From positions 6,358,900 through 6,422,899 of the forward strand of contig NC_089325.1 of the NCBI RefSeq assembly GCF_036669915.1: DNA of 64,000 nt. Direction: 5' to 3'. Shown in pieces: positions 29,001 to 64,000 of the stretch (its first letter is position 1; each line of letters starts with the position of its first letter). Origin of the DNA: Pocillopora verrucosa. Its lineage: Eukaryota > Cnidaria > Anthozoa > Scleractinia > Pocilloporidae. Made by a program: the position numbers and the translations under genes. The notes beneath the pieces are model-generated. The model was not told the DNA's origin and searched no databases. It was given only the letters and a program-made list of their open reading frames with translations.

Positions 29001-32000
29001 ATTTATTGTCGTGTAGTTCAGAGTCATTTATTGTTGTGTAGTTCAGAGTCATTTATTGTTGTGTAGTTCAGAGTCATTTACTGTCATGTAGTTCAGAGTC
29101 ATTTACTGTCACAAACCACAAGTTAGACTGCCCAGCCAGGTTGGTCAGTTCACTTATGGTGCACCTTTAACCCTTTGACCTCTAAGAGTGACTAGCATCT
29201 AATTTCTCCTTACAGAAAGTCTCCTAAATCAAACATTAAGGTCATGAGAATTAAGGAAATGATCGCTGAACAAAAAAGCTCTTGATTGTTGAACAAATTA
29301 TCATTGTCAGTATGATAGGAAATGGAGAACATGCACACTGATATTAGGGTGAAAAGAGTCACAGGAAATGCACACTTTAACTATGAACAGGTTAACGAAG
29401 CTATCGACTTCTGACTAAGAATAGACACCCCAACTATTATAATGAGAGGAGTTCATAGTCTGTTCTACTTAACCCTTTAACTCCTGTGAGTGACCAAGAC
29501 AGAATTTCTCCTTACTATATCTTTACAATACTATGCAGACAAGTGATGAGAATAAAGAAAAATATCAATTATAGGAAAACTAATTGATCCAATACCAAAT
29601 TCTCCAAACTAACATGATGAGAATTGTTTGGGAGACAGTAAGGAGAATTGCTAATGAGATCTTGGTAGTTAAGGGTTAAAGTAAAAGGGATCAAATTGAA
29701 AATAAATTCTGTGCTCTAAAGTACCTTCTTGGTGCCTGGAGGCCCTGAAAAAATCTGTGAAAAAACACAGCCCTAAAAATCTTTTTTAAAAGTCAGCTTA
29801 AGACAAAGGTTAGTCCCAGGCTACAATAAAGCACAGCCCCAATGTAAGAGAGATTTCATGTTTTGACTTGCCTTTTTCATTTCTGGCAAATCTGCACACC
29901 ATGGATCCAGAGAATCATCACTTTCATATTCAATTTCAGCTGTATCATTATTTCTCTGATACTCTCTTGGATCTCCTTTCCAAACTTCTTCATATAGTGA
30001 AGACTCCACTTGTGATGTCTTCTGTGGTGATGGTTGAACCATTGAATATTCATATGTTGACTCTGGTTGAGATTTCACTGTTGATGTCTTCTGTGGTAAC
30101 AGTTGAACCTCTGTATATTCATATGTTGACTCTGGTTGAGATTTCACTGTTGATGTCTTCTGTGGTAATGGTTGAACCAGTGAATATTCATCTGTTGACT
30201 CTGGTTGAGATTTCACTTGTGATGTCTTCCGTGGTAATGGTTGAACCAGTGAATATTCATCTGTTGACTCTGATTGAGATTTCACTTGTGATGTCTTCCG
30301 TGGTAATGGTTGAACCAGTGAATATTCATCTGTTGACTCTGGTTGAGACTTCACTTGTGATGTCTTCCGTGGTAATGGTTGAACCAGTGAATATTCATCT
30401 GTTGACTCTGATTGAGCTTTCACTGGCTCTGATGCTCCTGTTTAAATGTATCAAAGCAATAAATTTAAAGATTATCCTAACTCTTTCCAAAAAACAGGTG
30501 ACTCTTCATGGATAAAAATTTTATCCAACCCTAACCCAAACCCTAAGTAAGATTAAAATCAGCTATACCTACTAACTTCCTATAATATAATTAACCCTTT
30601 AACTCCCAGACCAAATTTGTAATTCTCCTTACTGTCAACCATACAATTCTTATAATGTTAGTTCAGAGGATTCAGTATTGGATCAACTAATTATCCCCAA
30701 ATTGATAGTTTTCTTTATTCTCATCACTTACATGGTTGATATTGTATTAATAATGTAGAGAGAAATTCTGTCTTGGTCACTCAAGGGAGTTAAAGGGTTA
30801 AATTATATGCAATATTCTGTGAAACCTGAAAACAATAATTTCTCTTCATCTGATTTCTCTCTTAACCCTTGGAAATGTCACCAGCATCTAATTTCTCCTG
30901 CTGAATCATTCTTTGAGATCACGAGAACAAAATAAATGATCACCAACCTAAGAAGTTTTGATTGTTAATTCAATTCTCCTTGTCAGTACCAAAGGAAATG
31001 TTTCAAAAAGAGTATGGAGAATATGGATACTGAAATTAACCCTTTAATCCCTAAGAGTGATTAGTATCTAATTTCTCCTGTCAGTATCACTCCTAAAACA
31101 AACATTAAGGTCATGAGAATAAAGGAAATGATCACCAACTAAGGAAGCTCTTGATTGTTAAACAAATTCTCTTTGTCAGCACTATAGGAAATGTATAGAG
31201 AACAGTGTGGAGATGATGTATGCTGATGTTAGGGTGTAAAGGGATGTAACAAACTAATTACATTAACAGACATGACTTGTCTGTGGCTGAGGTATATAAT
31301 ATAGACCAAATAGAAAATAGAATCTGCTGTTGTTGTTATCCTACAAAATGAGCAATGACAATGGAAAAACATTTCAACTAAGGAGAGTTCTCTTGCCAAA
31401 ACACCAAATTATGAAGCAACACATTTCTTAAGATAGGTAAAGAACTTAAAAGAAGAAGGGATCTGCTTCATACAAAGATCCATGTGTGTGATAGCTCAGT
31501 TGAGTTCAGTTCTCAAAAAATTACCAAAGAAGCAAGCTAACCTTGGTGAGGAGCACTGATCAATTTATTTTGCCGATGGTTTGTACTTCCTGGGACAGGA
31601 ACAGGTGGTAGTGGTAGATCACATATCTGCCTTTTAGGGAGATCTTTCAGTGAACCTGTTTGACGTGTGGGAGGGGGTGGAGGGGCAGGCCTTTGTTTAG
31701 CTGATGCAGCTCTTGGTAGCGTTGATGGTTTTCCCACAGAGGAATTTGCAAGATCACTTCCTCTTCCAGATAGAGATAATGATTGTGTTCTCTTTTCCGA
31801 AGCATCATTTAACACTGCCGAACACACATTCTTGATGCCTCCTTCTGATTCACCATCTGTAACTAGATCTGACACTAATACATTGTCTTCTGATTGTCTT
31901 CTTTTTCGTGGTCGTGGTGCAGGTGTTGGTCTTTTTGCTGATAGCCTCTCGGGTGCTTTTGGCACTACCCTTGGCTCAGTTGTTGCTACAGCTGTTTCTT

Positions 32001-32859
32001 CATTACTCTGCAGAGTGGAGCTTGCTTCATCACTTCCATTGTCTGTGTTAGGCAATACAGGACAGCTTGAAGTTGAATTCATTTGCACCTGAGGTTCTTT
32101 CTCATCAGAGGAACTAATATTTGCAACACTATCAGCATTAGAATTACAAGAAATCATATCTTGTTCTTGCATACCATTCTGTACACTACCCTGTGGGGTC
32201 CTAATCACTCTCCTGGGAGGTTTTAAGGGGGCCCTTTTTGCTGGAACATCAGGTTGTTTTGATTGAACTTGGAGTTGATCCACTTCCACATGCTTAGCAT
32301 CTTGTAGAGGAGTATCTGAAACTTTTGAAGTCTCTTTAGAGGGTATCTCTCTTTCTTCTAAATCTGCTCTTGGCGGAATAGGAGGAGGTGCTTTCAAAGA
32401 GCTGGATTTTTTCTTCGGTGGAAGTAAAGGAACGTCAGGAACTTTAGTATCAAGGCCTTCACCTGTGGTAATTTCACAACTGTCTTCCTTCGGAAGCTGA
32501 TCATTACAAGCACTTACACTTTCGTCTTCGCTAACAAAATTTATGAGCGAGTCCTGCTGCTCAGTTCCAGTTTCAGACCTGTCTGTTGTTACGTCCGTGT
32601 TCGGGCTGACACTGCCATCTTCCTCGTTCGTGAAATCCATACCAAGTTTTTCCCTGAGTTTCTCCGTAAACATAAGAAATCTTTTTCGATGATATGGCAT
32701 GACGATTCCCATCTTATCAAGGGCATCTTCATTTATTGAGCAACAGGTCTCCAGTGATGTAAAGCCGTTTGACTCAAGTTTCTCAGCATACCTATCGAGT
32801 TTGACTTCGGCCAACAACCATTCTCTGACCGCGTCAAAGTCTTCCTTTGCGGTAGCCAT
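8009..32859 (-). CDS. ARAP: ARAP-family dual Arf-GAP/Rho-GAP
   Basis: Homologue of vertebrate ARAP1/2/3, which inactivate Arf and Rho GTPases at phosphoinositide-rich membranes. Coding exons, 5' to 3' on the - strand (high-low): 32859-31542, 30437-29872, 29744-29725, 28828-28768, 28332-28295, 27693-27618, 27131-27063, 26623-26557, 26368-26316, 25750-25697, 25288-25239, 25140-25092, 24340-24228, 23906-23822, 23323-23263, 23024-22971, 22360-22275, 21692-21604, 20711-20618, 19943-19875, 19486-19447, 18730-18690, 18549-18522, 18414-18362, 17915-17850, 17413-17357, 17235-17129, 16669-16600, 16308-16218, 16051-15971, 15857-15723, 15095-14990, 14366-14282, 14037-13954, 13516-13487, 13382-13335, 12906-12826, 12573-12462, 12095-11989, 11275-11162, 11053-10939, 10317-10270, 9869-9806, 9106-9038, 8608-8567, 8113-8009. 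Order: SAM, Pro-rich, Tyr repeats, PH, PH, ArfGAP, ankyrin, PH, RhoGAP, RA, PH, basic tail; about 1,683 residues against 1,450-1,700 in human. Every junction keeps phase except 10939/10317. Only one PH lies between ankyrin and RhoGAP, where vertebrates have two. Confidence 0.93.
8224..8545. mobile_element. MITE with CGAAACGTCAG hairpin
   Basis: Contains the inverted pair gctgacgtttcgag / ctcgaaacgtcagc, then ctctttacaatggccaattt and atcaactcagttgata. A relative at 16345-16570 shares tcgaaatgtcagttttgaaa, ggtggccaatttac and the left segment gtttctaaagaaactgtggc. It sits between the last two ARAP coding exons. Confidence 0.7.
9228..9492. mobile_element. CCAAT-rich MITE, copy with both ends
   Basis: The left end attttcaattga pairs with the right end tcaattgaaaat. 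The 265-bp element carries at least five ATTGG/CCAAT motifs on alternating strands and no open reading frame. Relatives lie at 12185, 13056, 18058 and 42543. Confidence 0.8.
10722..10788 (+). repeat. tRNA-like fragment (degenerate SINE head)
   Basis: catttggtagagaatatcaa followed by gggtttgaattc resembles the D-loop and B-box of a tRNA. The acceptor stem does not pair well, so a working tRNA gene is not supported. Confidence 0.4.
12185..12410. mobile_element. CCAAT-rich MITE family, diverged copy
   Basis: Starts with ttttcaattgag and ends near gccattgtgattactttg. It is diverged from the copy at 9228-9492 and lies in an ARAP intron. Confidence 0.55.
13056..13262. mobile_element. CCAAT-rich MITE family copy
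   Basis: Starts tttttaattgagtgtcaaaa, includes ctctgtgattggtctagaaa and ataattggtcg, and has lost its right end. It lies in an ARAP intron. Confidence 0.65.
13954..16308 (-). other. ARAP: ARAP exons 29-34: RhoGAP domain
   Basis: About residues 1179-1372. It opens VFGVLLCQQ, has the arginine finger in EGVYRVNGG and the conserved LKQYLRQLPDPVIP, then NHGTLKAIISHLT and NIAMIFGPTLM. All hallmark residues of an active RhoGAP are present. Confidence 0.92.
16345..16570. mobile_element. MITE related to 8224-8545
   Basis: Shares gtttctaaagaaactgtggc, cgctcgaaatgtcagttttg and ggtggccaatttacgttatc with the element at 8224-8545. It lies in the ARAP intron just before the RhoGAP exons. Confidence 0.65.
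16899..17090. mobile_element. TTAACCCTTTA element, type B
   Basis: Begins tttaacccctaagagtgact, with the internal marks tcacgagaataagggaaatg and cctttggaaatgtatacaga that recur in the other type B copies. The right end has decayed. Confidence 0.65.
17625..17766. mobile_element. Palindromic MITE with CCCACCTACCCC arms (copy 1)
   Basis: The left arm tctgggcaaccgcccaccta is mirrored by taggtgggcagttgcccaga on the right, around a core rich in taacccaacattaacc. A second copy lies at 25930-26068. Confidence 0.8.
18058..18294. mobile_element. CCAAT-rich MITE family copy
   Basis: Starts aatttaaaattgagtgtcga and ends near tttacgacaattg. It includes aaccaataaga, tattggctc and gattggccg, and lies in an ARAP intron. 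Confidence 0.65.
18823..19281. mobile_element. pogo-like MITE with CAGTCGAACCTGT ends
   Basis: The 459-bp element has the inverted ends cagtcgaacctgt and acaggttcgactg and is flanked on both sides by TA, the target duplicated by Tc1/mariner/pogo elements. Sub-repeats such as aagcggtcac and aacgatcac fill the interior. No transposase frame remains. It lies in the ARAP intron between exons 21 and 22. Confidence 0.85.
20165..20400. repeat. Two tandem copies of a ~115-bp unit
   Basis: The marks ggatcacacc, cacagaatcagctgt and agccacagaa occur twice in the same order about 115 bp apart. The function is unknown; it lies in an ARAP intron. Confidence 0.7.
21398..21578 (+). mobile_element. TTAACCCTTTA element, type A, right end lost
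   Basis: Begins ttaaccctttaactcccatg and includes gatgagaataaagaaaaata and cagtaaggagaatt. It lies in an ARAP intron. Confidence 0.75.
24513..24690 (+). mobile_element. TTAACCCTTTA element, type C, partial
   Basis: Includes ggaagtgatcaatatgtaac, atcaggtagaagttgtta and ggaaatgtgtagcaatta. It matches, in opposite orientation, the full type C copy at 53438-53650. Confidence 0.6.
24752..24943 (+). mobile_element. TTAACCCTTTA element, type A, complete
   Basis: Both ends are present (ttaaccctttaactcccatg and attaaagggttaa), 192 bp apart. It lies in an ARAP intron between exons 12 and 13. Confidence 0.85.
25930..26068. mobile_element. Palindromic MITE with CCCACCTACCCC arms (copy 2)
   Basis: The arms atcaatatcagtatctgggc and gcccagatactgatattgac flank the same core as at 17625-17766, but in inverted orientation. 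Confidence 0.8.
27155..27365. repeat. Three tandem copies of a 60-75-bp unit
   Basis: The phrase aagtagttccaccaaaaaaa ... ggcaaaacaggacacttgc recurs three times with small changes, immediately upstream of ARAP exon 7 on its strand. Confidence 0.85.
27770..28140. mobile_element. Palindromic MITE (copy 2) with 24-bp perfect arms
   Basis: An inverted relative of 2815-3125. At 28032-28080 it holds a near-perfect palindrome: two 24-base arms (ttgacatgataacccaatat...) around one unpaired base. It lies in an ARAP intron. Confidence 0.75.
28178..28282. repeat. Inverted repeat, possible small MITE
   Basis: gctgagtatttttatgag is mirrored by ctcataaaaatactcagc, with about 55 bp between the arms. It lies in an ARAP intron next to the PH1 exon. 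Confidence 0.7.
28405..28605 (+). mobile_element. TTAACCCTTTA element, type C, partial
   Basis: Includes ccagaagtgattaccatgca, accaaattctcatcactta and ggaaatgtgtagcagctga, as in the type C copy at 24513-24690. Confidence 0.55.
28915..29111. repeat. 25-bp minisatellite, about 8 units
   Basis: Unit agttcagagtcatttactgtc + atgt, starting at 28915, 28940, 28965, 28990, 29015, 29040, 29065 and 29090 (last unit partial). Variants are C/T at tact/tatt and a/g at catg/cgtg. It lies in an ARAP intron. Confidence 0.93.
29166..29358 (+). mobile_element. TTAACCCTTTA element, type B
   Basis: Begins ttaaccctttgacctctaag, has aaggtcatgagaattaagga and ends near gatattagggtgaaaag. It lies just beside the minisatellite. 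Confidence 0.75.
29469..29678 (+). mobile_element. TTAACCCTTTA element, type A, complete
   Basis: The left end ttaaccctttaactcctgtg and right end tagttaagggttaa enclose the usual type A interior. It lies in an ARAP intron just after the 20-nt exon 29725-29744. Confidence 0.85.
29872..30437 (-). other. ARAP: ARAP exon 2: six 23-residue tyrosine repeats
   Basis: About residues 440-628. Six tandem 69-bp units each encode a 23-residue block of the form STDEYSLVQPLPRKTSQVKS with small changes. Tyrosines sit at about 455, 478, 501, 524, 547 and 570, in the contexts EYSLV (four times), EYTEV and EYSMV, followed by a diverged YEEV at about 588. An acidic segment (EIEYESDDSLDPW) follows. The exon ends AAAAAG|GCAAGT, a GC donor. 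The four upstream units are nearly identical at DNA level, so the array is recent or homogenised. Confidence 0.9.
30591..30801 (-). mobile_element. TTAACCCTTTA element, type A, complete, inverted
   Basis: ttaaccctttaactcccaga at the left and ggagttaaagggttaa at the right; the interior reads as the reverse complement of 24752-24943. It lies in ARAP intron 1. Confidence 0.85.
30862..31245 (+). mobile_element. Two adjacent TTAACCCTTTA type B elements
   Basis: One copy begins at 30862 (ttaacccttggaaatgtcac) and runs to about 31035. The next begins at 31036 (ttaaccctttaatccctaag) and ends near ttagggtgtaaaggga. They lie in tandem in ARAP intron 1. Confidence 0.75.
31542..32859 (-). other. ARAP: ARAP exon 1: SAM domain and proline-rich region
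   Basis: The start ATG is at 32857-32859. Residues about 7-72 form a SAM domain (REWLLAEVKLDRYAEKLES, then DALDKMGIVMPYHRKRF); in vertebrate ARAPs the SAM binds SHIP2 or similar partners. The remainder is low-complexity and holds several SH3-ligand-like stretches, such as APPPIPPR, APLKPPRR and RPAPPPPPTR. The exon ends in phase 1 at CAAG|GTTAGC. Confidence 0.92.
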
Positions 32860-35800
32860 AAGAAATCAAACGCTCACACTCTTGCAAGGATCCATGTGGC
32901 TATAGATCAAAGACTAATAAATGATTCATCAGTAGGACTTTAAGTATGCACATTACCACCTTAAGATCGTTCAAAGCCTAGACTTAATTTACAAACGAGA
33001 CTATGTTTTTGATATAAGACTTAAGCTTCCGGGACCTGTGGAATGCGCACAATCGGAATAAGGTGTTTTGCTGACCACTGTTCAGCAATCACGGGACTAT
33101 GGCATACCTCGAGGGATAGTTACCCCGGAAGAGTGATCCTTTTAAGAGATTTTTACGAATTGATTTTAAGAAAACAGTGTCAAGATTATGAATTTGGGTA
33201 TCTGAGTGGATTTAGAAGCGAGTGTAGCCAGACGGGGTAGAGCATCCCAGAACAAAAAATATTTTATGCACCCCTGCGTGTTCCCCCCCCCACCCCACCC
33301 TATCTTAACAAAATTCCAAATATAACGCACTATTGATCCGTTTCGATCCAGAAGTCAAAAGACTATCACTTTGGTTGCTTTGCAAGGTGGAAGTGAGTAT
33401 TTCAACGAAGAAATGTACGAATTTCGCAAATTTTCACTAATGGTATCTGTGGTTGTGAAAGTACCATAACAGCTTGGGCACGGGTGTTCATTTTTGCTTT
33501 AAGACGAGGTACATGGTTTTCTCTGAAATGTTTGCAATTTCTCTCACGATTCTTAGATGAATTTTACATAAATTTTTTAATGATAATTGATCTTTAAAAT
33601 GTAAGAAGACTCTAACATGAATGCAAACAAACACTAAACGCTTAGGTGAGTACAAAAGCCTTCAACAGAAAAATTCCGAAAAAAGCAGCTCTCCCCATCC
33701 ACTCTCCTCACAAGGTCATCTAGCATTCCATACTGCATCTCATTGCGCAAAGGTTTGGAATTTCACACCCTTAAGTTAAAAAAAGCCCGAAAATGCAAGA
33801 GGAAAAAACGAAGTAAAAATAATGATATGACATCTGATAAGCAAAATTCTGGAAAAGGCCCAGATGACGTCATTGTGGCAGCGGGACGAAGTGACGCAGT
33901 ATGAACGACTTCTACTTTCGTCGAGTTCGAAGCACGTTTTCGTTGCTAATATCAGCCTTTGTCACTTTCTAACTCCATAGTTAACAATTTTAGGGCAGCT
34001 TAAATTTGCATGACAACAGTGCAGTTTGTGTGATAGCTTCTACACCTCACGGAGGTTAAAATATTCTCAATTTTTTTTCTCCCATCAGTTTTCCTTCTCT
34101 ATTCATAGTTCTCAGTCATTTTAGTCTTCCTATCCTGGAAAGTGAAGAGGAATATCCGTTGACAATACTTTGGCGAACGCAAGAACAGTAAAGAAATTTC
34201 CGTACTGGATGGCCGTGTATTGGCGCAGGTAGGGACAAACTAGGAATAAGGAAATACTAGGATCATAACCTTGTCTAATCTGAGTGCGATGTTGCAGCTT
34301 TTTGATCAAGGAAAGCAAGCAGGATTTTTCAGCGAGGCGAGAAAAAGAGTCTTAGATAACTTCTTTCAGACTGATCATGGCCATGCCAGACTGTTTTATC
34401 GTAACTTATTGTCGGCTTTATCATCATTTTTTTTTTCTTTTTTTTTCAGATAAAGGGGGTCGTACGTACCCTAAAGCATCTACGCATAGGTTTCGCCATT
34501 TTAAGGGTTTGATCTAATTCCAATCTCTCTCAATTTTCCGCCTGGGCTATTACTTCGATATAACTATAAGGATCCATCGAGATTATTGAAAATTTGCCTA
34601 TTAAAGAATTTCTGAATAGCTCAAGAACATCGCTGAACCCGAATTCGCAGAGAAAAGTTACGTGTGAGCAGACATAGCACGAGTAATACTTTTCTGTTTT
34701 TGAACGACATTCCCAATATTTTTTTGTTTACTCCACCGAAAAGTAATAATTCTACAACCGATAATAGAAAGAAAATTTTTTTTGATTTACAAGGAATCTG
34801 AAGGTTGGTTTCAGTCTCAGTTACGACTTATGTCATTAACAGATATCAAGTCTTGCTTTAACAACGGGAAGTCTTATAAAATGGCCACGAAAATATATCA
34901 CTTTTAATTTCATTGCTTTCACTCATTTTTCATTTCGTTCTTTTTGTTTTTGCTTACGATACTACCATGCCGGCTGAAAGTATGAAAACCAATGGTTTGT
35001 TTCGAAGCTTGTCTCCACACTTAAAACAGTTTTATAATTAGACAAAGTTTGAACTTTAAAAGATCAAAGTACGACCATTAAAGTTTCCATTTAGATAAAA
35101 CATAGGTTTTCCGTTGAAAGATAGGGAAGGTTTCTTTAAACTTCTATTTTCTTTCTTTATTTCTCTTAAGAGCACGATATTCTTCCAAGAGTTCAAGATT
35201 TCCCTATAGACAGTACATTGTTATTGTGGCTCAAAATTCAGTTTAAAAAAAAGCATTCACTGAAACATTTGCCCATTCATTAGACTTTTCGGAGCCGCTT
35301 ACGTAATCTTGGGAAAAGACAAAACAAAAGACCTCATTCCTTAAACTTCGTCGATAATTTGTCTAAATAAAGCGCAAAACCTTTTTCAGCTGTTCCATTC
35401 TTTTGTCTTTTTCTTATAACACATGTGCTGCTCTAAAGCAAAGATGACAAGGCAGTATTTGGAAGCCGACGTTATGCATCATGTGACATAAGCTGAAACC
35501 CGCCTGTTGACTGGCACTGAGTACCTTTTGTCAGGAGAGATTAAAGGGCCTCAGCTACCCAAAATAGGCCTTTTCTTACGATAATATAGTCTTTAAAAAG
35601 AATTTTATATTTGGAAATATCTAAACAGTGGAAATATCTTCATACAGAGTTGTAAACAAACAAGAATAATTACTTAGAATAATCTCGATCAACTGACCCC
35701 TGTCGAATCGCTTCACACTTCTGACGTCAACAGTATTTCCCAGACTCCTTTTCCGCACGAGTATATTTTTTTTTCGTGCTTTAGTGCCCACTAACAGAAT

Positions 35801-45429: not shown

Positions 45430-46510
45430 TTGCACCAGTAGGTGCATAAGGCTCTCGCATTGTCCACCCAGCCCCCCATGTCACCTGCCACCACCTTGGC
45501 CATATTGCAGCTCCTTCACCCCGCCTTGCCTCTCTCTCTTCTGACAGTCCTTCTCCCTCTTGCCCTTGGACCTGCCAGTGTCCACCCCAATGCTGTAGAA
45601 CAGTCATTCACACCCTCTCCTGAGTATGTGTCCTAAACAGTTCCACCTTCTTTGCACCTTGTCGCTAATTTCATCGATCCCTGCCCTTTCATCAACTCTA
45701 TTCTCTTGTTAGTCATTCTATGCTGCCATCTAATCCTCAGTATTCACCATAGGTATTGGCATCGGAAACTGTTCAGTTTTTTTTCATCAGTCTTTGTGAT
45801 CTTCCATGTTTCACAACCATATAGCAGGACTGGTCGGACTGAAGTCTTGAATAGTCGTATCTTGGTTCCCCTTCCTATTCCTCTGGCTGCCCACACCTTC
45901 CATAGCCTCTGGAATGCACCTTGTGCCCTCTGCAGTCTGTTCCTGATATCTTTACTGCCTCCACCTTCCTTGTCTACAATAGCTCTAAGATACACAAACT
46001 CCTTGACATCTTCCACTTCTTCACCAGTCACCACAGTGTTCTCCCTGTTCTGAGCAAACTCAGTCCTCATTTAGTTTAAGGCCTACTCCGGCTTCTTCCT
46101 CCATCAAACTCCCACTCTTCTCACCCAAGTCCTAAACTTAAATGGAAGTAGTGTGATGTCGTCTGCAAAATCGATATCCAACATTGTTGTTAAATTCCAT
46201 TGCATCCCTCTTCTCTTGTCTGCTGTTGTCTTCCTCATGATCCAATCCATGGCCAGTAAGAATAAGAATCCTGACATTACACATTCCTGCTTCTTTACTC
46301 CCCACTTAATCTTGAACCGGTCTGATGTCTGGCATCCGTCAATCATTGCCCATTCAAACCCTTCATAAATGCCTACTATCACTCTCACCATCTTGTGCAG
46401 AATTCCATAGCTACCCATGATGTTCCACAAGCTTTCTCTTTCTCTTTTTTTCTCTGTGTACCAAATCAAAGGCTTTTCCAGAGTCCACAAAGTGCATGTA
46501 AATCTATTGA
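45430..46510 (-). pseudogene. Decayed LINE reverse transcriptase fragment
   Basis: Fragments of a non-LTR retrotransposon RT run 5' to 3' on the - strand. From about 46510: HFVDSGKAFD, IVGIYEGFEWAMIDG, CVMSGFLFLLAMDWIMRKTT and the RT signature FADDITLL; then, after a frame break, VKEFVYLRAIVDKEGGGSKD, RLWKVWAARGIGR and RPVLLYGCETWKITKT. Further breaks follow to about 45430. A purine-rich insertion interrupts the start. No endonuclease and no element ends are seen, so it is a dead 5'-truncated copy. The clade cannot be assigned from this alone. Confidence 0.9.
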
Positions 46511-48224
46511 TTACTGTTTATAATCACCAAGATGGTTTCTGATAGTTATTCAAAAGAGAGCCTCAGAAAAACAGGTGAAAATCAGAAAACAACAAAAATT
46601 GGATATTCAGAATCCTCCAAACCTTTTGTAACAACAGAGAAAAACTTAACATTCACTCACCGTTACTTTCACTGCCATGCACACTAAAAGGGAATTAGAC
46701 ACATAATAAACTTCTGTTCTCCAGCCAAGTAGCCCTCTGAAGGGAAGCTTACCCTGGTTTACAAGGCATGAAGTGACAGAGGATTACTACTACCACTACT
46801 ACCCTTACAAAACATGCCAATCCATCCAAAGGTTACCCGCAGCATTTCATTGCCCTACCCTGGCAATTTGGTGGTATCCAATTATTTTATACTACTGAGA
46901 GAGAGAGAGAGGTACTGAAAGTGAAGTGTTTAGTTCAAGATAAGCCAGCTATTGAACACAAAGATCGCATCCAGGAGTCCTGTGCACTTGCTAGGAGGGC
47001 ATCATGTCCCACACAAACACAATGAAATTTCAAAATTTGTTGTTGCTTTTATTTTCTTGTCATCTGCGTGCATCCTCATTAACATACATATCTGATTTAC
47101 ACTTCTACTTTAACATGTAACTAAGACTATCTGATGATGAAGTAACAGTTACCATCTACCATTATTTCTAAAATAGAACTTACTTTATTTAAACCACTTT
47201 TATTTGAATATATTAATCACTAATTACTGTTTTATGAGATTTTTGAGATGACATGACAACACAGATAATTACAATTTATTTGAAGCACTATCATTAAATT
47301 CATTAGCTTGCTTCAAAGACATAACCTGGGAAAGCAGACACCTTTCTTTTCCAGACAATTAAATAACTACCTGAGTGCAAAATATTCTTGATAACTTGAA
47401 ACTTGCCTATATTTGAGATAATTTCTTGAAGGAACAAAAAAATACAAACCATCCGCTTTGTGTGATTGATAACTTACTAAAATATTGTTTTCAATGTATT
47501 CAGTCTTTTGGGACAAAAGCATCACTGTGACAACCAAGTCAGAGACATATCAGAGAAATATAGTTTTAGCAAATGTATGCATACCATTTAACTTTCAAGA
47601 CATTTTTGTGTTGTTTTACAAAAAAAGTTGATTTAAACAGGAATACGTCTCTTTCATAGACAGACTTGACATGATTTTTTATTCTCTCTTAAACCCTGAG
47701 AAGAGATCCATATGCAGTGAACTACATTTTTAAGCAAACAGTTCTTGCTGATAAAATGAGGATGTAATCTTGATATGCAAAATACTTCTCTTTACCAATT
47801 TACAAGGAAATTTATAGCAGCTAGAAATGAGAATTTATCAATCAAATCTAAGGCAGTTCAAGGTCAACCAATCTTTATGGGTGAGTTTTTCAACATTCTT
47901 TTCAAACTCCAGATTTCCTTGCTCACTGAATCTTTTTAATTTCCTGTCATTGTTAAAACATGATCTTTTTTTTACCTTGACAACTGAGTCTATATTAATA
48001 TCTAGCAAGTTTAACAAAATTCAGATTGCACCAGTGATATATTTTTTTCCCTTCACAAAACCTAATCTCAATCATCCTACTGCCTGTAACCAGGCCCTTC
48101 ATCTAAGAATTGTGTGAGAGACAAAGGCTTTTATCACTTACTTTTCATTTCTTGTCCATCTCTAAGTCTCCGGTAATATTTCTAATTGAAGAGCATGTTT
48201 GCTAGCTAATCATAACCTTCCTTC
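46511..48224. other. Spacer without a recognised gene
   Basis: AT-rich, with a short GA run near 46900. No exon, RNA gene or clear repeat is supported. Confidence 0.4.
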
Positions 48225-48689: not shown

Positions 48690-49307
48690 CTATTCACAGC
48701 AACCTGAACTTTCTCTCTGAGTAACTCTAGATAAATTCACTCCCTCAGTGGCAGAGAAATCACTTTTTGCTTTGGTTTGTTCCAATTCGTTCAGTCTGTT
48801 GACGGCTGCATGGAAGGCATTGTCCACATTCGTCGAGTCTTTTGCGCTTGTTTCGTAGTAGGGAATTCCACCGATCTCCTGACAAAAGTTATGCGCTTCT
48901 TCTTGCGTCACAACCCTCTCGTCAACGTCAATTTTATTTCCCAAAAGAATAAACGGAAAGGTGTCCTTGTCTTTCACATCAGCGTAATACAGAAATTCCT
49001 TCCGCCACATTGCCAAATTTTTGAAGCTTTGAACATCGTCAACGGCGTAAACAAGCAAACACAAGTCTGATCCCCGATAAAAAGGCGTCCTTAAGCTTTT
49101 AAACCTTTCTTGGCCAGCTGTATCCCAGATCTGTAAGGTGTAGGACTGTCCTTCGACATTCACATCTTTATTCAAGAACTCCACTCCAATTGTGTGGAAG
49201 GATTGCGTGTCGAACTTGCCGCTTACAAATCGGTTCATCAGCGAAGACTTTCCAACACCGCCATCCCCGAGCAGAACAACTTTTAGAAACGTTGACTTGC
49301 TAGACAT
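48690..49307 (-). CDS. RAB9: Rab9 GTPase
   Basis: Late-endosomal Rab GTPase; its mammalian homologues drive late endosome to trans-Golgi recycling. A single uninterrupted exon encodes 205 residues, and human RAB9A also has an intronless coding region. Seen: P-loop GDGGVGKSS, switch I with FHTIGVEF, switch II WDTAGQERFKSLRTPFYRG, guanine motifs GNKIDV and ETSAKD, and a C-terminal CC for geranylgeranylation followed by one residue. The segments NKFDTQ-like GKFDTQ, EFLNKD and KEFLYYADVK identify Rab9 rather than Rab7. Start: MSSKSTFLKVV at 49307 aligns with the family start; an in-frame ATG ten codons upstream (49337) is less likely. The catalytic glutamine (AGQE) is present. Confidence 0.95.
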   Translation of the reverse strand: MSSKSTFLKVVLLGDGGVGKSSLMNRFVSGKFDTQSFHTIGVEFLNKDVNVEGQSYTLQIWDTAGQERFKSLRTPFYRGSDLCLLVYAVDDVQSFKNLAMWRKEFLYYADVKDKDTFPFILLGNKIDVDERVVTQEEAHNFCQEIGGIPYYETSAKDSTNVDNAFHAAVNRLNELEQTKAKSDFSATEGVNLSRVTQRESSGCCE

Positions 49308-50426
49308 TCTGATTCGCCGTAGCGTACAAATTAACAAATCATACCGGGAGAAGAGACAAGAACAACTTATGTACCTCTGATTACCTTCGTTCCTTCAAAT
49401 TAGCTGAGCATCACGTGATAGAGCAGAGAGTGAGACACTTCGGTTCGAAGTGAGTGATGGGTAACTCTGTTTCAGGTTCAAAATAACAAGTTACTTTTGA
49501 GGAACATGAGGTACACGCCTAACAATTTTTGTTTTCGCAAGGTGAAAAGTCAAAGTTTGAGTGGAAAGTAAAGGAATTCTTGTCTTAACAGTAATATCAT
49601 CAGAATAGCTTTCTAAAAATTGCTAGTAAGTCAGAAAAACAAGTTAGCCTGATATCCAAACAATATCCAGGCAAATTTGGCTGCCTCCTCAATGCCTAGC
49701 ATGATAAAACTTCCATTTACAAAGTTTGAGATAATTTAAAATTCAATGTAAATTCAGATTTTTTATCTTTATATTGGATCTGAAACTATATTCCACAAAA
49801 CAACAAAATGAAATATCTGAAACGTTATTTCAATAATTATTTTTGGGAGGATAATGTTGTATTTGAAAGATAGAGTGATTTCTGGAGTGCTCCAGTGGTG
49901 CTTGGTTATGCAAAAGACTTCTCTCACACTGGAATTAAGTGTAACTATTGTACAAAAATGCCAAACACAAATTAAATGACTCATTTCAGGCTTAATACTC
50001 AAATAAGCAAGGAAACAGAGAGAATTTCTTTAAGGGAAAATGGAGCTGCATTTATTAAATTATTTTTGGCAAATTTTACACTTGATTTAAGCTATAAAAC
50101 ACAAAGTAATATAAACATTGCAGTTACTACATGACCACCAAATGAAGTGTGCCAAGTGGGAAACTTTTATTGTAAATTAAGTTACCAAATAACTAGCCTA
50201 CAGGACAGATGTAATTTTTTTGCATCTTTCAGGTGAACAGAGGCAGGCAAAAAGCTAGGAGTGCAAAAAAATAACACATGTATGCATACTATTGTTCAAG
50301 CTCTTCCCCTTGAGCATAACCTGCATTTTATGTTCACTTCACAATTACCTCCAATCTCCTGAAAAGCACAAAAAAAAATCACACTTGTTCTCCAAGCTAC
50401 CAAATCACTGATCAACAGTACAATGT
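49308..50426. other. RAB9 promoter side and THEM6-like 3' flank
   Basis: Spacer between two genes on the same strand. The part nearest 49308 should contain the RAB9 5' UTR, possibly with a non-coding exon. No motif or repeat is clear. Confidence 0.4.
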
Positions 50427-57195: not shown

Positions 57196-60100
57196 ATGCC
57201 AATCTTGTACAGTGTTGTAGCAAGAGGCACAACAGTGTTAGCCAAGTTTGCCTCTTGTGCTGGAAACTTTGCAGAGGTTACAGAACAAATTTTGAGTCGA
57301 ATTCCACCAGAGAATTCAAAACTTACTTACACCCAGGGAAAGTAAGTGTCAACAGGACATCAGTAGTTGTATCAAAGCAATATTGCAAGCTTCATGATAT
57401 AAATCAAATTAGAACTAAACACTTGACCTCTCCTAGAAATTGCAAGCCAATTTGCTATTCTTTTATGTTTTAATTAGCCTTTTAAGCCAGCCTTGACATC
57501 ATGTTTAAAAAAAAACAAGGGAATTTCCATGCAAAAGCGAGGCCAAAAGGGCTAATTTGTCTGCACTTAAAATAATGAAAATTTTTTTTTACAATTACTA
57601 AAGAGATCCTTAACCTGACATTGGGTCCACTCATATTATTTCTTTATTTAATTGTTTTTTGTTATGAATTTGTGTGCAAGAATTTGGTAATTTTATCAAG
57701 CAATATTCCCAAATTGGTGTGTTTGTTTCTTCTGAAAACTTGAATAATTGACAACATGGAAATGATTTTAAGGAATATCACCATAATTAAACAACTGGGC
57801 AGGGACCTTCAAACGTTTTACTCCCAAGATCTCATTAGCAATTCTCCTTACTCTCTGCCATAAAATACACATGATATCAATTTGGAGGATTTAGTGGTGG
57901 ATCAACTTTTGGTTCCCTAATTGAGTTTTGTTCTTTATTCTCATCACTTGTACTCTTGATATTGTATTGGTAATGTAAGGAGAAATTCTCTCTTGGTCAC
58001 TCATGGGAATCAAAGGGTCAATGAGGACCACTAGGCTTAAGAGCATGTTTTGCCTAAATTGAGTTTTCATAGTATTTGATTTTTAAATTTTGTTATATCA
58101 TCCTCTTAAATCATTGTGAATTCATTTGATATTTCAATCTTACAGCTACCTGTTTCACTACATATCAGAGGACAGAGTGGTCTATTTGTGCATTACAGAT
58201 GATGTAAGTTAACAAAAATAATTTTTGTAAAATTTAACAATCTTTGAATTTCTACATTGCTTCAACTTTAGCCCAAGTTAGCATCTGAGAGGTCCACTAA
58301 ATGGTTTGTTTATTCTGTCTTTGAATTCAGGATTTTGAAAGGTCCAAAGCATTTCTTTACCTGACAGAGATTAAGAAACGGTGAGCAAGTACTGCCTCTC
58401 ATGCTTCATTTACCGTAGCTTCCAGTATTACTGTATTATTGTTATGGATTAGCGATTTCTCTAGTTTGTCATCACCGTAGTTATGGTGAACTTGTTTGTT
58501 TTGTTACAGTTTTCAAACTGCATATCATGGCCGTGCACAAACAGCACTGCCTTATGCTATGAACAGTGAATTTTCAAGAGTCCTTTCAGCTGAAATGGTA
58601 AGTATATTGTTCAATCCATCTATTTTCAGCCTTAAAGATACACACATTTTTTCCATTAAGATATTTTTATTCCAATTGATGCTTCCCACTGCCTCTCTGT
58701 GAAATCACCCCTTATTAAATATATTTCTTATCTGAGCATCTTCTTTTACAGAAAAGGTTTTCTGATACTGAACATCAGGCAGATAACCTGTCAAAAGTGC
58801 AAGGAGAACTTGATGAACTTAGAGGAATCATGGTGAAAAATATTGGTAAGGGCTGCATGAAAGAGAAGAAAAAACATTTTTTACTCTGTAGATTTTGACG
58901 AAATACCAAAATTTCTCCTGGTAAGTTTATGGTGCACACAGTGAACAAACCATTTGTGTCAGCCTACAGTTGTGAAGAAAACCTTGTCCTTATGGTAACC
59001 AAGTTTCTCAACATGGCAGTTTTACTTTTCGCAAAGGAAGTTTTTCAATTAACAAATTTAACGAGGGTTGATTCAAACTTTCTTTAAGAGAAAAAGATTT
59101 TAGGTTATGAGGACATGTGGACGTGTTTTATTTTTATGTCAGCAATTGTAGTTGCTTTTCTTACAAATGATCTCTGCATTCTTTTGTTTTCTAAAATGTG
59201 TGTTAAGGTCATCTTTGATTTAAATAAACAAGAGAACAATGTCCAAGGATATAGTGCTTATCCATGGGTAGTCACTCATCTTAATACTGATAATATTTTC
59301 TTGATTTTGGAAACAGACACCATCGCACAAAGAGGAGAACGTTTGGAACTCTTGATTGATAAGGCAGAAGACCTTAATACCTCAGTGAGTTCTCAATAAT
59401 TATTTAGTTAATTGTGCTGTAACATTGTTGCTTGAATAAGTGTCCCATTTACTGATCTTCCTCTTTCCTAGTCCCTCACTTTCAAGAAATCAAGCAAAGG
59501 CCTGGCCAGAGCCATGTGGTGGAAGAATGTCAAAATTACTATAATACTTGTGGTTGTTATTATTGTAAGTATATGGAAGTTGGTTCAGTATCAAAATTCT
59601 CCATACTTTTCTCTATATATTTCCTTTGGTACTGACAAGGAGAATTTCTTAAACAATGAAAGCTTCTTAGTTTGGTGATCATTTTCTTTAGTCTCATGAT
59701 CTTAATGAATGATTCAGCAGCATTACTCTTTAACTCCCAGATCAAATTAGTAGTTCTCCTTACTATCAACCATGCAATTCTTATAATGTTAGTTCAGAGA
59801 ATTTAGTATTGGATCAACTAATCTTCCCCAAATTGATAGTATTCTTATATTCTCATCACTGATATGGTTGATATTGTATTGATACTTTAAGGAGAAATTT
59901 TGTCTTGGTCACTCATGTGAGTTAAAGGGTTAAGCTGTCTCCACTTTTTACTCTCTGTGCCAATCTCCCTCTACTTAAAAGACTCTCACATTTTACTGGT
60001 TTTTTTTTGGTTTTTTTTTTTTTTTACCCCTTCCTCTCCCTACCCTAGTATGTCAAATAGAGTAGATGGAGATGTATGTATACTGAATGTATATTTTTGA

Positions 60101-62086: not shown

Positions 62087-64000
62087 TTAGGGATTTAAAC
62101 TTGGTAGAAAGCAATTTGGTCTTTTTACCAGATGGACGAGATAGTTCTCTAGTCTTCGGGCAATTTTCAGTCGGTCATCTTGTGAAATCGTTGCCAAAAG
62201 ATTCACACGCGAAACAAAGAAGTGAGGTAGTAGACCTTTTCTCATTCGTTGAATCAGATTCTGAATAAACTCTAACACGCTTCGTGCCAAATTGGACTTG
62301 TCGGGTTTTTCACACCGATGAAGGAGGAACGCGTTCTTTAGGTGAAAAGAAGTAAGTGGTCTCAATTCCTCTTTTTTAGCCTGAAAAATAGCTTTCACAA
62401 TCTTGTAATATTTCTTGTCCGAATCGCTAGGCAATAAAAGCTTTTTCTCAGCCTCTGAAAAGGAGATTCGCCAGAACACACGAGAATCTAGAGACCTTTC
62501 TGCATCGCAAGGTTTCGCCACCAGATAACATTTGGGTTGAGAAATTCTGATTTCCTCAACTTGATGTTTCGTTGGCCAGCTACCTTTCGAGGAAAAATTA
62601 CCCCAGCCACTCGCACACCTCGGCCACTCCAAAATCTCGATGCTCAGAACTAAATCAAACTCGATTTTCCCATCGATTTTCAGCGTGACTGCTGGGCCAT
62701 TCTGACGAACATTTGAAACCCGATGTCGCTGATCCCTCGCAAGAAGTTTCACTGCTTTGCATACCAAGGAGAAGAAATGTCTCAATAATTTTGTGGGCGA
62801 GAGGTATTTTCCATCCGCCGTTAGGAAAGCTCCCCATAGTTCTCTTCCTTTAAGAACATGATCTTTAAACAAGAGTTTCGCGAACAACATAGTTGAAGGA
62901 TCCCGAAAGTTGTATTCTATGTTAAAGAACTTTGTGATTCGGTGTGAATCGAACACCAACATGGTGTCGAATTCATTTGGCTGAGAAACCCTTAATTTCT
63001 CATAATAGCTACCTGTTAAAAAAAAAGAGGCATAAAAGTAAATACGTTTTTAGAACATTCCTCTCCATTTCCTCTCCATTTTTCTCTTGAAACCAACGCA
63101 CTTCCCTAAGAACGATCGGAATTCATGAAAATCCCATATTCAATGAAATCTCCTCCATTCCCCCAACACCACGTTGGAAATCTGTCAAAATATATTTTAA
63201 TCTTATTTAACCTCACTTTTTAATAACACTCGATTTGAGAATGGCGGCTTACCCGTGTTAAGCTTTTTCAGCCCAAAAAGTTCATCTTGTTGTTGTATCA
63301 AAGGTAACAAACTCTCAAGAAAACCATTGACAGTACTTGAATTCTTGTTTATTTCTCCTTGAGTTAAAGATACTTTATCATCGAAAAATTTCAGCAAAGC
63401 AGTGTGAAGTATGTAATGGCCTCTTGGTGATACAGGTTTGGTTCCACTCAATGGTCTGAGAAGAAACAAGTTCCGTTAGAAGTAAGAATAACATTTGTCT
63501 CATCAAGTTGGATATATATTTTTATACCCTGGATCGAGCATTCACTTAGATAGTAGCTTATTATTAGTGAAAAAAAGATGGTTCGTGGCAAACACTTGTA
63601 TACAAGATTTTAATTCGAGCCCTAGTGTTTGGTAATAAGATATTTACCTAACTCCACTAAGGGGTGAGAAGGATTCGTAATTATTTATCGCCTGGATAGG
63701 GGGGGAAGGTGGGGCGGAAGATTTTGGTTGTGTCACAATAAAAGTTACCTGATTCCCCCCCCCCCCCTTTCTGTAGTATTCTAATGATTTCCCCCCCTCA
63801 TTGGCAATCAACTTTTCTATAGTCTCGTTTGAGACTGTTTTTTTTTTGGTTTTTTTCTTTATCTGTTTCCTCGAACTGGCCTACCTTGAGTTCCTTACAA
63901 GTCCCTCTGTTGGTACAGGTTGCGAAGGCCGCGATTGGGGAGCTTTTGACACAGTACGAACAAATTTTCCTCGGTCATTGTTATGATAATTTACAGTCTT
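62087..64000 (-). CDS. cGAS-like receptor (Mab-21 nucleotidyltransferase), partial
   Basis: Member of the cGAS-like receptor family, enzymes that sense foreign nucleic acid and make cyclic dinucleotides for STING. Three exons are visible: 64000-63885 (continues past the window), 63455-63253 and 63012-62087, all joining in phase, for at least 413 residues. Seen: a low-complexity N-terminus; a spine helix (RGHYILHTALLKFFDD); the nucleotidyltransferase signature GSYYEKLRVSQPNEFDTML with the GS loop and the first two acids in EFD; the third acid in GKIEFDLVLSIEILEWP; then the Mab-21 core SWPTKHQVEE, PKCYLVAKPC and RVFWRISFSEAEKKLLL; and the C-terminal SFHLKNAFLLHRCEKPDKS. All catalytic residues are present, so it looks active. 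The His/Cys-Cys zinc thumb of vertebrate cGAS is absent, as in many invertebrate members, so the ligand cannot be read from the sequence. The N-terminus is missing only because the window ends. Confidence 0.92.

Follow-up and report, generated by a model that had tools for sequence, protein, structure and literature searches.

In its final 1.9 kb the window, by which we mean the whole 64-kb stretch of Pocillopora verrucosa DNA that was analysed (64,000 nucleotides), holds on the minus strand the 3' part of a 5'-truncated gene for a cGAS-like receptor (cGLR), and the encoded protein is, judging from its sequence, in all likelihood an active cGLR of some kind. The fuller proposal that we favour is that a long double-stranded nucleic acid would bind along a basic surface of this receptor, that such binding would switch on the nucleotidyltransferase, and that the enzyme would then join ATP and GTP into 2'3'-cGAMP, a product predicted from the residues of the pocket. 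The 2'3'-cGAMP would in turn signal via STING, as the family suggests. Taken whole, with active enzyme, nucleic-acid ligand and 2'3'-cGAMP made for STING, the proposal seems to us moderately probable.

Joining positions 64000-63885, 63455-63253 and 63012-62087 of the minus strand gives an open frame of 414 residues, with GT/AG ends and compatible phase at both introns. Exon 3 (62087..63012, minus strand) covers the protein from the GS motif onward, ends the C-terminus with a TAA stop, and encodes the Mab-21 and Mab-21_C domains with the three metal-binding acids. Exon 2 (63253..63455, minus strand) encodes the part leading up to the GS motif and, by analogy with cGAS, would be the spine-helix part. 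The intron between them (63013..63252) reads GTAAGC...CAG. Together these two exons code for 376 residues free of stops, and we regard both as firm because the match to the PDB sequence 8gjy, which we take to be Sp-cGLR1 of Stylophora pistillata, a receptor that answers dsRNA with 3'3'-cUA, covers query residues 55-396 and so spans their junction.

Exon 1 (63885..64000, minus strand), which would supply a basic, proline-containing tail, we infer from its donor score and open frame, homology giving it no support. The donor, AAG/GTAGGC, ranks in the top 1.1% among 3509 minus-strand GT sites when scored with a rough textbook matrix, and the frame stays open as far as the window edge at position 64000, no start codon falling within the window. 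If exon 1 is right, the intron that separates it from exon 2 (63456..63884) reads GTAGGC...CAG. Against this assignment, of 20000 frames of 38 codons drawn at random from the window 10.9% are likewise open, and a rival phase-compatible donor with its last exon base at 63749 scores slightly higher, with only 10 open codons preceding it. An alternative donor at 63648 is preceded by 77 open codons, among them a glycine run that comes from a poly-G tract.

The homology covers both the NTase core and the C-terminal helix bundle. In exon 3, Pfam finds Mab-21 (PF03281) at 2.5e-27 (96.7 bits against a cut-off of 24.1; profile positions 1-195 of 197) and Mab-21_C (PF20266) at 2.2e-12 (47.4 bits against 24.1; profile positions 3-101 of 102), scores so far over the cut-offs that chance matches are not a reasonable explanation; the exon 2 frame by itself has no Pfam match. 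At E<=0.01, 45 distinct PDB sequences match the window protein. The top match, at 108 bits, is 8gjy ('cGAS-like receptor 1'), followed by many cGAS chains at about 69 to 83 bits (the best at 79-83) and two sequences labelled 'uncharacterized protein' (65.5 and 61.8 bits), with MAB21L1 at 59.5 bits, below 8gjy and the cGAS chains. Other matches are 8gjw, also 'cGAS-like receptor 1' (50.7 bits), MB21D2 (40.1), 7lt2, a 'Mab-21 domain-containing protein' (35.8), and MID51 (about 18). A structure model of exon 3 alone, computed from the single sequence, reached a mean pLDDT of 35.3 and is not usable.

The set of catalytic residues is complete. The window protein contains the motif LNTGSYYE, EFD at residues 120-122 and FDLV with D226, and with these the [QT]GS motif and three acids by which Li et al. 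(2023) recognize a cGLR (T106-G107-S108, E120, D122 and D226). We mapped 15 mouse cGAS positions onto a four-way alignment of the window protein with 8gjy, 7buj (cGAS) and MAB21L1 (5eog). Since the letters of 7buj agree with the residue numbering used in the mouse paper, we treat this chain as mouse cGAS. The GS motif and acids of the window protein fall on mouse T197-G198-S199, E211, D213 and D307, in agreement with the preliminary description, which had called the GS loop and all three metal-binding acids intact. Identity extends to 12 of the 15 positions (T197, G198, S199, E211, D213, D307, K350, R364, S366, K402, S420 and H467); of the remainder, I309 is replaced by V228 and Y421 by F329, and C419 is opposite a gap. 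Two controls come from the same alignment: 8gjy, which matches mouse cGAS at 11 of the 15 (T197 is K, I309 is T, R364 is C, and C419 is again a gap), and MAB21L1, which matches at 5 and has M, D and N in columns 197-199, E in column 213 and Q in column 307. T197 and R364 thus set the window protein apart from 8gjy, while Y421, absent from the window protein, is kept there. The contrast drawn earlier with Mab-21 proteins that lack these residues holds for MAB21L1 as aligned here, but the survey of the family counts Mab21L1 among the proteins with complete putative sites (PMC9980059).

The literal pattern of Li et al. (2023), which asks for X50-90 spacing and for acids flanked by hydrophobic residues, was unmatched as a regular expression in the four forms tried. 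In the window protein a T follows EFD, and the second and third acids lie 103 residues apart, versus 93 in the cGAS letters and 104 in 8gjy. Because cGAS and 8gjy themselves have these values, the spacing read literally does not tell members of the family from other proteins, and we rejected it as a ground for excluding the protein.

What such an enzyme would make is suggested by work on mouse cGAS, in which R364 and I309 are reported to hold GTP in site 2 so that the 2'-5' bond can form, the R364A enzyme makes mainly 3'-5' pppApA from ATP, Y421 is the base-stacking residue, H467 disfavours GTP at site 1, and the contact of T197 to the GTP amino group is judged not critical (PMC11091121). In the window protein, R288 (mouse R364), S290, T106 and H370 all match mouse cGAS. 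If the enzyme is active, it is in our judgement likely to make 2'3'-cGAMP, which the survey gives as the most frequent product found among cGLRs (PMC9980059); this call depends chiefly on R288, an arginine that 8gjy does not have. The candidate sensor of the preliminary description survives as a candidate cGLR, but to call its product unknown was an overstatement, the pocket favouring 2'3'-cGAMP chiefly through that one arginine.

The same pocket also provides arguments for the alternative that we take most seriously, an active cGLR with some other ligand or product, for example a ligand that is not a nucleic acid, or a dinucleotide that contains a pyrimidine or is 3'3'-linked. F329 stands where cGAS has the base-stacking Y421, V228 stands for I309, the pocket differs in 8gjy, the nearest solved relative by score, and published coral cGLRs include ones with an unknown ligand and with a 3'3'-cUA product (PMC9980059). 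Set against this are the four residues shared with mouse cGAS. Since 11 of the 15 positions are shared by 8gjy too, and the product hangs chiefly on one arginine, we consider this alternative unlikely though by no means negligible, and put no more than moderate confidence in the favoured proposal.

The zinc-thumb H-C-C-C pattern finds no match in the window protein, which does not qualify as a vertebrate-type cGAS. At the columns of H378, C384, C385 and C392, which we take to be the zinc ligands of mouse cGAS, the window protein has S302 in the first and gaps in the other three, just as the preliminary description's report of a missing thumb would lead one to expect; in the same four-way alignment, 8gjy and MAB21L1 also lack these ligands. 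The Zn-ribbon is described as conserved in vertebrate cGLRs in one review (PMC10854198) and as missing in those homologues, of fly and shrimp, that the shrimp paper aligned (PMC12928593); the main text of the survey preprint does not contain the word 'zinc' (PMC9980059). We considered and rejected the step from a missing thumb by itself to a dsRNA ligand, dsDNA-activated oyster cGLRs, whether thumbless or not, having been published (PMC9980059).

Charge gives some indication of the ligand. The joined protein has a pI of 9.91 and its core from residue 56 one of 9.69, and the comparison letters give 9.10 for mouse cGAS, 8.94 for MAB21L1 and 8.03 for 8gjy. In the survey, cGLRs that sense dsDNA or dsRNA have pI >8.5; among acidic cGLRs, some seem to answer something else (PMC9980059). 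Because of its high core pI, the window protein probably has a double-stranded nucleic acid as its ligand, although pI, with MAB21L1 at 8.94 and 8gjy at 8.03, is a weak guide and dsDNA cannot be told apart from dsRNA. The same high pI speaks against a receptor of the acidic type, and counts against the alternative of another ligand or product. In the survey panel (n=15), dsDNA elicited a response from two oyster cGLRs and dsRNA from seven receptors, and six showed ligand-free activity (PMC9980059). Something of a long shot would be a cGAS-side member of the family that has the cGAS base pocket but no thumb and answers a ligand other than plain dsDNA or dsRNA; if it were true, 2'3'-cGAMP chemistry would be separable from the DNA grip of the zinc thumb.

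The basic, proline-containing N-terminus had been thought unusual, a view that the comparison with cGAS does not sustain. The N-terminal 55 residues, which come partly from the inferred exon 1, hold 10 K/R, 2 D/E and 7 P, and the 21 residues ahead of the core in the cGAS letters hold 8 K/R, 2 D/E and 3 P. With a similar share of prolines, and with cGAS even more basic at the same place, such a tail is a feature common to the two; in human cGAS, the N-terminus is described as unstructured (PMC10855445).

Identity and phylogeny both place the window protein, weakly, on the cGAS side and apart from MAB21L1. Our tree holds only the window protein, cGAS, 8gjy and MAB21L1 (295 gap-free columns, LG+G4), and all four branches are long. 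The best topology is ((window, cGAS), (8gjy, MAB21L1)), with an AU value of 0.972; the two others are rejected at 5% by AU (0.0398 and 0.0185), the second still lying within the c-ELW confidence set. The pairing of the window protein with MAB21L1 is the one at 0.0185, so that the placement among inactive Mab21L proteins, which had been named beforehand as the result that would count against an active receptor, is not the one that this small and weak four-sequence tree returns. The ranking by identity agrees with the tree, the window protein being 31.8% identical to cGAS (321 columns), 29.8% to 8gjy and 25.6% to MAB21L1 (344 columns). Bit scores and tree are not in full accord, because 8gjy, not cGAS, is nearest by bit score; 8gjy is also the best non-self match of MAB21L1, at 119 bits.

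A non-enzymatic, Mab21-type scaffold protein has a precedent in three shrimp Mab21 proteins that activate a kinase, with cGAMP synthesis undetected, despite falling into a clade with human cGAS in the tree of that paper (PMC12928593). The shrimp proteins, however, reportedly lack essential nucleotidyltransferase residues (PMC12928593), whereas the window protein has the GS motif and three acids, and the four-sequence tree disfavours its pairing with MAB21L1; a scaffold is therefore very improbable here. Just as improbable is a decaying copy within an expanded family, for although many cGLR copies are possible in cnidarians and bivalves (PMC9980059) and the 5' end is not in view, exons 2 and 3 give an open frame of 376 residues, the catalytic residues are still in place, and both donors score among the best 1.2% of GT sites.

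From its sequence, the gene looks like an intact animal gene and an ordinary addition to the large published cGLR family. Apart from the three exons themselves, a tblastn search of the window with the 414-residue protein (E<=10) returned only seven weak matches, the strongest of them at E 0.066, and so no second copy within the window. Scanning viral contigs with exon 3 gave 26 pattern matches, 0 of which tblastn confirmed as relatives.

Elsewhere in the window, ten other open frames were scanned with Pfam, and four reach the cut-off of a family: a synaptobrevin domain on the plus strand, and a Ras-family GTPase, a thioesterase-like domain and a SAM domain on the minus strand. Together with the introns, these domains point to an animal genome. 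The synaptobrevin domain exon (59472-59678), VAMP7-like by eye, lies near the receptor gene on the opposite strand. The Ras-family GTPase (48690-49394, minus strand) is a single uninterrupted open frame and appears by eye to be Rab9-like; the SAM domain is N-terminal in a 442-residue open frame (31537-32865, minus strand) with what looks by eye like a long proline-rich tail. A 206-residue open frame at 29821-30441 (minus strand) is built for the most part from a 69-base tandem repeat (6.1 copies, 93% match; array 30007-30426), the units of which carry a YSLV-type motif that by eye suggests a tyrosine signalling tail; its sole Pfam signal, UBX, falls just below the cut-off (20.7 versus 21 bits). 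An open frame at 46104-46517 (minus strand) with a FADD motif resembles by eye a reverse-transcriptase fragment and has no Pfam match.

A complete cGLR is to be expected in a cnidarian genome, given the cnidarian cGLRs already published. The survey preprint lists 3,020 cGLRs in 583 species, with high numbers in cnidarians and bivalves and 42 counted in one coral (PMC9980059), and a review tabulates cGLRs of Pocillopora, Stylophora, Exaiptasia, Nematostella and Hydra with their ligands and products (PMC10855445). These two sources conflict on the Nematostella product, which is 2'3'-cGAMP in the survey (PMC9980059) and 3'3'-cGAMP in the review table (PMC10855445). Responses of Nematostella and Stylophora to cGAMP treatment have been described (PMC13319465), and work on choanoflagellate cGLR-STING has been published (PMC12424679). 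Catalytically complete cGLRs are thus already a published kind, and with thousands on record, and assays reported for several coral, anemone and hydra members (PMC9980059, PMC10855445), the present gene changes little on its own; it adds one more candidate sensor, with a cGAS-like pocket, no thumb and a testable product prediction.

Among the three proteins compared, MAB21L1 shares the Pfam-level family but has M-D-N in place of T-G-S, E as the second acid and Q as the third. Sequence 8gjy is alike in its GS motif, its three acids, its thumblessness and its nearly equal acid spacing, and unlike in the K and C of its base pocket, where the window protein has the cGAS-type T and R, and in pairing with MAB21L1 in the four-sequence tree. 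With cGAS the window protein shares most of the pocket and catalytic residues and a basic, proline-containing N-terminus, whereas cGAS has a zinc thumb and the shorter acid spacing.
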